From the NCBI GenBank assembly GCA_002803225.1, contig NXFV01002042.1, forward strand, positions 41,330-105,329: a DNA stretch of 64,000 nt, written 5' to 3'. Below, in pieces: positions 11,613 through 55,929 of this stretch. Each line of letters opens with the position of its first letter. Position 1 is the first letter of the stretch. Below the pieces are notes generated by a model, which made no database searches, was not told the DNA's origin, and was given only the letters and a program-made list of their open reading frames with translations. The DNA comes from Gamarada debralockiae. Its lineage: Eukaryota; Ascomycota; Leotiomycetes; Helotiales; Hyphodiscaceae. The translations under genes were made by a program, and so were the position numbers.

Positions 11613-11620
11613 AAAAAAAA
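11613..11620 (-). terminator. Pol III terminator of U6 (T8)
   Basis: A run of eight A on the plus strand reads TTTTTTTT on the U6 strand, directly after the exon 3 sequence GAAGCTACCAA. Further T runs (T10 and T8) follow at 11601-11592 and 11594-11586 or so, and could act as back-up terminators. Confidence 0.8.
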
Positions 11621-11824
11621 TTGGTAGCTTCTCTTTGATTGAGCGTGTCCTAGGATAGATTAGTATTTTCATATCACATTTTGTATATTAGTTTCACTCA
11701 CATCCTTAGTGCAGGGGCCATGCTAATCTTCTCTGTATCGTTTCCTGCGAACACGTTAGTTTGGGGATGTTTGTAAATCTTTTGGCGAGTGAAACTTACA
11801 AATTGACCAAATGCCCGAAGGCAG
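11613..11824 (-). ncRNA. U6: U6 spliceosomal snRNA gene with two introns
   Basis: U6 forms the catalytic core of the spliceosome. Exon 1 (11824-11800) holds the 5' stem-loop TGCCTTCGGGCA and ends GGTCAATTT. Exon 2 (11744-11702) runs GAAACGATACAGAGAAG through GGCCCCTGC to AAGGAT and contains the ACAGAGA and AGC boxes and most of the internal stem-loop. Exon 3 (11649-11613) starts GACACGC and ends in T8. Intron 1 (11799-11745, 55 nt) has GTAAGT, branch CTAAC and GCAG. Intron 2 (11701-11650, 52 nt) has GTGAGT, branch TACTAAT and CTAG. Joining the exons restores the conserved U6 sequence without gaps, giving an RNA of about 105 nt. Relative to yeast U6 the introns lie between U38/G39 and U80/G81. 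One extra nucleotide sits in the stem-loop tip (GCACTAAGG). Introns in U6 are known in fission yeast and other fungi. The exact 5' end is uncertain by a few nt. Confidence 0.95.
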
Positions 11825-11841
11825 AATTTTTTCAACTTAAT

Positions 11842-11853
11842 TTAATATATTAA
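11842..11853 (-). promoter_or_regulatory. TATA-like box of the U6 gene
   Basis: The palindrome TTAATATATTAA lies about 18-29 bp upstream of the inferred U6 5' end. A TATA element near this position is normal for Pol III U6 promoters in fungi. I found no convincing B box; the GTGTTCGCAG at the end of intron 1 is only a weak match. Confidence 0.6.

Positions 11854-53483: not shown

Positions 53484-55929
<2,446 letters not shown>

Follow-up and report, generated by a model that had tools for sequence, protein, structure and literature searches.

The locus at 11827-11613 on the minus strand of the window (the whole stretch of 64,000 nucleotides of Gamarada debralockiae DNA analysed here) raises the question of how a U6 snRNA gene can be split when U6 is needed to splice U6. 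The gene, hereafter U6-A, is made of three exons and two introns, and when its GT-AG introns of 55 and 52 nt are taken out, what remains is about 100 nt long and is a canonical U6. The features of the gene are the following.

11842 to 11849, minus strand: TATA-like box TATATTAA, read from the sequence, with its first base 22 nt ahead of the inferred start.
11800 to 11827, minus strand: exon 1, with the 5' stem-loop UGCC-UUCG-GGCA followed by GGUCAAUUU, ending at yeast U38; its 5' end (11827) is inferred and uncertain by a few nt.
11745 to 11799, minus strand: intron 1, 55 nt, GTAAGT...CTAAC...CAG, between yeast U38 and G39.
11787 to 11796, minus strand: intron 1 segment AGTTTCACTC, a perfect complement of 11699-11690 in intron 2.
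11755 to 11759, minus strand: branch site CTAAC of intron 1.
11702 to 11744, minus strand: exon 2, GAAACG ACAGAGA ... CUAAGGAU, yeast G39 to U80.
11650 to 11701, minus strand: intron 2, 52 nt, GTGAGT...TACTAAT...TAG, between yeast U80 and G81.
11690 to 11699, minus strand: intron 2 segment GAGTGAAACT, the partner of the intron 1 segment at 11787-11796.
11659 to 11665, minus strand: branch site TACTAAT of intron 2, read from the sequence.
11615 to 11649, minus strand: exon 3, GACACGCUC, with the U2 helix II strand CAAAGAGAAGCU and the 3' end; the 3' boundary (11615) is placed arbitrarily within the T run.
11613 to 11620, minus strand: T8 run, a Pol III type terminator.

The sequence-only reading had described a U6 gene with two mRNA-type introns, placed between U38 and G39 and between U80 and G81, and this description was confirmed. 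Across the joined exons, GAAACG...GATGACAC was identical at 48 of 48 positions to fission-yeast U6, as we take this reference to read, one of its loop bases being uncertain, and the junctions fell at what are presumably 38/39 and 80/81 of the S. cerevisiae U6 (112 nt). In the assembly scan, the unspliced gene scored 44.0 bits with the Rfam U6 model (RF00026), for which the cut-off is 44, and no U6 match was listed when the entire window was scanned at the cut-off. Once spliced, U6-A contains the invariant core ACAGAGA...AGC...internal stem-loop in addition to this Rfam match. By motif, the upstream TATA and the T-run terminator correspond to a Pol III type architecture, and GT-AG introns with branch sites, together with an exact U6 after excision, are what characterizes an intron-bearing fungal U6. 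U6-A is probably a working U6 snRNA gene, a judgement made jointly with the wider account given below.

To estimate how often such introns arise by chance, a strict motif (5' splice site, branch site, and YAG) was searched in fixed-length stretches on both strands of about 0.5 Mb of sequence. It was found at 7 of 502,688 places for a length of 55 nt, and at 12 of 502,826 places for a length of 52 nt; introns 1 and 2 of U6-A, respectively, pass it. A loose intron motif was dropped as evidence, with 190 matches against 222 in a reversed control and hence no separation. Because the loose motif was equally common in reversed sequence, the evidence lies in the exact coincidence of the motif with the U6 exon boundaries. 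Four of the seven snRNA introns found in the assembly, including both introns of U6-A, pass the strict motif. Of the three others, U4 intron 1 and intron 2 of the U2 gene on contig C166 deviate in the sixth nucleotide of the 5' splice site, and intron 1 of the latter gene ends in AAG in place of YAG. A CTRAY branch site was present in all seven, with 10-12 nt 3' of the branch A. The earlier claim that the branch sites resemble those of mRNA introns was also borne out, as two putative mRNA introns of the single Prp8 locus, placed where its Pfam match is interrupted, are of the same type and end in TACTAACTTTTAATAG and TACTAATAAGACAATAG.

The 10-nt complement between the two introns of U6-A touches both 5' splice sites, and only 6 of 5000 shuffles reached 10 nt. 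A regulatory helix between the introns was rejected: the predicted fold of the precursor was not unusually stable when compared to shuffles (z −0.10), and the helix was missing from the predicted structure.

A search of the whole genome for an intronless U6, suggested by the sequence-only reading, was performed with Rfam and revealed one on contig C507 (positions 132-234, 78 bits), hereafter U6-B. A search of the assembly with 24 nt of the U6 core, tolerating at most 3 mismatches, gave only two places, U6-A and C507. The two genes differ at 3 of 44 core positions (93% identity), and one of the changes in U6-B leads, in predicted structures, to a G-G mismatch in stem II with both U4s. The 5' stem of U6-B is quite unlike that of U6-A in sequence, with its pairing intact, and a TATA-like box lies 28 nt before the gene, which also has a T run of its own; these features argue for U6-B function. 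The dependence of U6 splicing on U6 itself is less troubling given the intronless U6-B. About 430 nt from U6-B, a rearranged U6-like fragment was observed on the same contig (L001, 666-710), in which ATACAGAG is followed by an inverted AGAAGATTAGCAT.

Going further than the sequence-only reading, we found that the assembly contains, outside this locus, split genes for U4 and U2 as well. U4 is present as one copy with two introns (U4-A, contig C1106, 67.2 bits unspliced) and one intronless copy (U4-B, contig C102, 98.7 bits). In U4-A (L009, 1387-1625), the introns, of 49 and 55 nt, are of the mRNA type and surround an exon 2 of just 8 nt (GTTTTACG); their sites are presumably yeast 14/15, in the U6-pairing part, and 22/23, in the 5' stem-loop. 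For U2, an intronless gene (U2-B, contig C429), a gene with one intron of 52 nt (L010, contig C781), and a gene with two introns of 54 and 50 nt (L012, contig C166) were found. We take the site of intron 1, common to C781 and C166, to be yeast 8/9, in helix II with U6, and that of intron 2, present in C166 only, to be yeast 30/31, which separates helix I from the region that pairs with the branch site. Over the 5' domain exon, the genes on C781 and C166 agree at 67 of 70 positions, and over their common intron at 29 of 54; the exon has thus been preserved and the intron has diverged, which is what introns that are spliced out should show. In predicted structures, 3 of 32 pairs changed on both sides between U4-B and U4-A with pairing kept, and among the three U2s two-sided, pairing-preserving changes were seen in 15 of 44 pairs, with 6 of 44 broken or gapped in one sequence. 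Judged by these paired changes, the U4 and U2 copies, both intronless and split, look like functional RNAs.

Four U1 loci were detected, three alike and one variant on contig C331, with Rfam scores of 61.9, 55.8, 53.0, and 29.5 bits, all under the cut-off of 69.5, and no intron was observed in any of the four in the Rfam alignments. No U5 was found in the assembly by Rfam at E 0.001 or E 10 (46 of 2940 candidates scored), or by two loop-plus-Sm patterns; U5 may be split or diverged, and hence missed by these searches.

The pairing predicted among these RNAs was then compared. Stem II was the most stable for U6-A with U4-B (−34.2 kcal/mol), and for U6-B it reached −30.1 and −19.5 kcal/mol, which is weaker than for U6-A with each U4. 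Stem I of U6-A was predicted at −9.3 kcal/mol with U4-A and −8.5 kcal/mol with U4-B, and its helix II with the three U2s at −13.5 to −15.4 kcal/mol, so that U6-A is predicted to form stems I and II with U4, and helix II with U2, as a U6 should. Each U6 would be able to pair with each U4 and U2, and the split and intronless sets are therefore not exclusive by pairing. One value counts against the account that we favor, as U6-A pairs worse with the spliced U4-A (−23.6 kcal/mol) than with the intronless U4-B.

The DNA itself shows the exons, the splice and branch sites, the motifs of promoter and terminator, the further copies, and the potential for pairing; from these we infer transcription, splicing, function of both U6 copies, and a single nucleus for all copies, in an account that we hold to be probable as a whole. 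Pol III would transcribe U6-A from the upstream TATA-like box to the T run, and the ordinary spliceosome would remove both short, mRNA-type introns of pre-U6-A to give a canonical U6. The diverged, intronless U6-B would probably be made in the same nucleus, and U4 and U2 would be arranged alike, with split copies and intronless paralogues. The U6 that starts the splicing of pre-U6-A could come from U6-B or have been made in earlier rounds. Both U6 genes are most likely functional; pre-U6-A would be spliced by spliceosomes in which U6 is already present, and U6-B would let this splicing begin from scratch.

Introns inside splicing RNAs are natural records of intron entry into genes, and it was proposed from the window alone that those of U6-A lie where reverse splicing would place them. 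We regard as plausible, though just short of probable, that reverse splicing from spliceosomes brought the introns into the RNAs of U6, U4, and U2, and that they were then copied back into the genes. The six distinct intron sites are all in RNAs that take part in U2/U6 or U4/U6 pairing, with none seen in the four U1 loci, in agreement with such an origin. Both U2 sites fall within nucleotides 1-31 and both U4 sites within nucleotides 1-22, a clustering with a probability of 0.0007 under uniform spread, for thresholds chosen after seeing the data; a cDNA-mediated loss of 3' introns could also leave this 5' bias. In addition, intron 2 is present in only one of the two split U2 genes, where it has the 12-mer GCCTTTGCTAAC, around the branch site, in common with intron 1, which may point to copying, although the branch-site consensus accounts for part of the match. 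However, U4, which is not part of the catalytic spliceosome, is split too, yet it is gone when catalysis occurs. Moreover, no donor intron of U6-A was found in one whole-gene DNA search of the genome, which returned only U6-A and U6-B and may overlook matches that are decayed or very short; the recognizable donor expected under reverse splicing was thus not detected, although donors may have decayed. A reverse-splicing origin is compatible both with the intron positions and with the account given above. The intronless copies provide built-in controls, and a comparison of sites across Leotiomycetes could test this origin.

It may also be asked whether the splicing of pre-snRNAs acts as feedback on splicing capacity. 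We consider it rather unlikely that one nucleus contains two sets, an intronless one (U6-B, U4-B, and U2-B) and a split one (U6-A, U4-A, and U2-A), of which the latter is under splicing feedback. The intronless set, perhaps with the variant U1 of contig C331, would then assemble without prior snRNA splicing, and the split set would be matured solely by a working spliceosome. If this were true, the ratio of the sets would report or tune splicing capacity.

An unlikely alternative is that a second fungus owns the intronless U6, U4, and U2, and that in the fungus of the window all are split, as in fission yeast, with U6-A as its sole U6. The intronless copies are strongly diverged from the split ones (61% identity for U2, 73% for U4, and 79% for U6), and in five of six stretches of their contigs (C507, C102, and C429) the 4-mer correlation with the pool was 0.65-0.82, when compared to 0.83-0.92 in 12 stretches of other contigs and 0.82-0.93 in six stretches of the window. 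Furthermore, C507 is short (14 kb) and AT-rich at its U6-B end, and the protein tested from it has just three relatives, all unnamed. On the other side, the assembly (54.3 Mb, 1112 contigs) contains only one Prp8 locus, and its RPB2-domain genes number three, as expected if Pol I, II, and III have one each; both counts argue against a second complete fungus. The contigs of U4-B and U2-B, of 119 and 102 kb, are big for a minor contaminant, and the sixth stretch, on C429, correlated at 0.93 with the pool. For one protein on C1066 and one on C429, the best named relatives were from Helotiales, with that of the C429 protein in Hyaloscypha (58%), followed by Sordariomycetes. The GC content of sampled contigs was 0.445-0.495. 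A GH20 protein of the window (54004-55926) was 93% identical to one protein and 81-82% identical to those of Mollisiaceae, which belong to Helotiales, Leotiomycetes, and of Acephala and Hyphodiscus. As the contigs with intronless copies are partly off the 4-mer profile, one organism is held to be likely rather than proved, and all snRNA copies would then be in one nucleus.

It is improbable that U6-A is dead or dispensable, with U6-B as the source of all U6. The sequence-only reading had considered that an intact intronless U6 elsewhere, together with a lack of transcription or splicing of U6-A, would make U6-A a pseudogene, and an intronless U6 that has a 5' stem, a TATA-like box, and a T run is indeed present; however, U6-B is the diverged copy, with its three core changes and the G-G mismatch. 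In U6-A, the core and the signals of both introns are intact. Because the canonical core is in U6-A and the divergence in U6-B, we do not consider U6-A to be a pseudogene.

Finally, the fission yeast U6 intron holds an internal Pol III B box, and retention of the U6-A introns for such a promoter element is very doubtful, as no forward GWTCRANNC with up to one mismatch was found in either intron, the nearest being beyond the terminator, and as U4 and U2, which are Pol II genes, are split as well. The one point in its favor is a Trichoderma table entry, "U6 snRNA promoter with 1st intron" (PMC9518982), which also suggests a split U6 elsewhere in Pezizomycotina.

Our preferred account, in which U6-A is spliced beside an intronless U6-B, extends known systems. 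As the sequence-only reading had stated, introns in fungal U6 are already known: fission yeast U6 has one intron near the catalytic nucleotides, for which reverse splicing was proposed (PMC10484740). U6-A likewise has an mRNA-type intron near the catalytic nucleotides, but it contains two introns rather than one, and the assembly has in addition an intronless U6 and split genes for U4 and U2. The fission yeast gene with its mRNA-type intron was reportedly described by Tani and Ohshima in 1989 and 1991, and Canzler et al. are said to have reported multiply interrupted fungal U6 genes in 2016. Insertions in fungal U6 are independent at several sites, and some genes, with examples in Rhodosporidium, presumably resemble U6-A in carrying more than one intron. 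The U2 gene of Rhodotorula hasegawae was reportedly found in 1993 to contain an intron; the likeness is that of one mRNA-type intron, whereas here one or two are found per split U2 gene, with an intronless U2 in addition, and in an ascomycete. Fungal U3 snoRNA also contains spliceosomal introns, with split and intronless copies in some species, including two Leotiomycetes (PMC5832005). It is, like U6-A, a small structured RNA with spliceosomal introns; unlike U3, which is outside the spliceosome, the RNAs split here are the splicing machine itself. In a literature search that missed most subscription papers, no published report was found of introns in U4 snRNA, or of introns in U2, U4, and U6 together. 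One candidate for introns in U4 was rejected, as it concerns a mitochondrial rRNA region (PMC10210050). The split U6, U4, and U2 beside intronless copies go further than any report found.

Some additional observations concern the sequences at and around these loci. A palindromic element, GTTTGCTTT...AGCAAAC or close to it, is located at least about 100 nt upstream of the split U4, both split U2 genes, and one U1 gene (L009, L010, L012, and L015), and by eye it was observed at none of U4-B, U1-B, and the U6 genes. Downstream of the U1, U2, and U4 loci (L008-L016), a 3' box made of TTCATTG, a hairpin, and TGAAGAAG, or close to it, was found, the weakest being in L012; this common box is likely to be an RNase III type processing signal. 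The variant U1 (L016, C331:7952-8100, minus strand, 29.5 bits) has an intact Sm-like site and 3' box, and its 5' end is AUUCAUACCC, not AUACUUACCU, a difference that would give it better pairing with GUAUG-type 5' splice sites.
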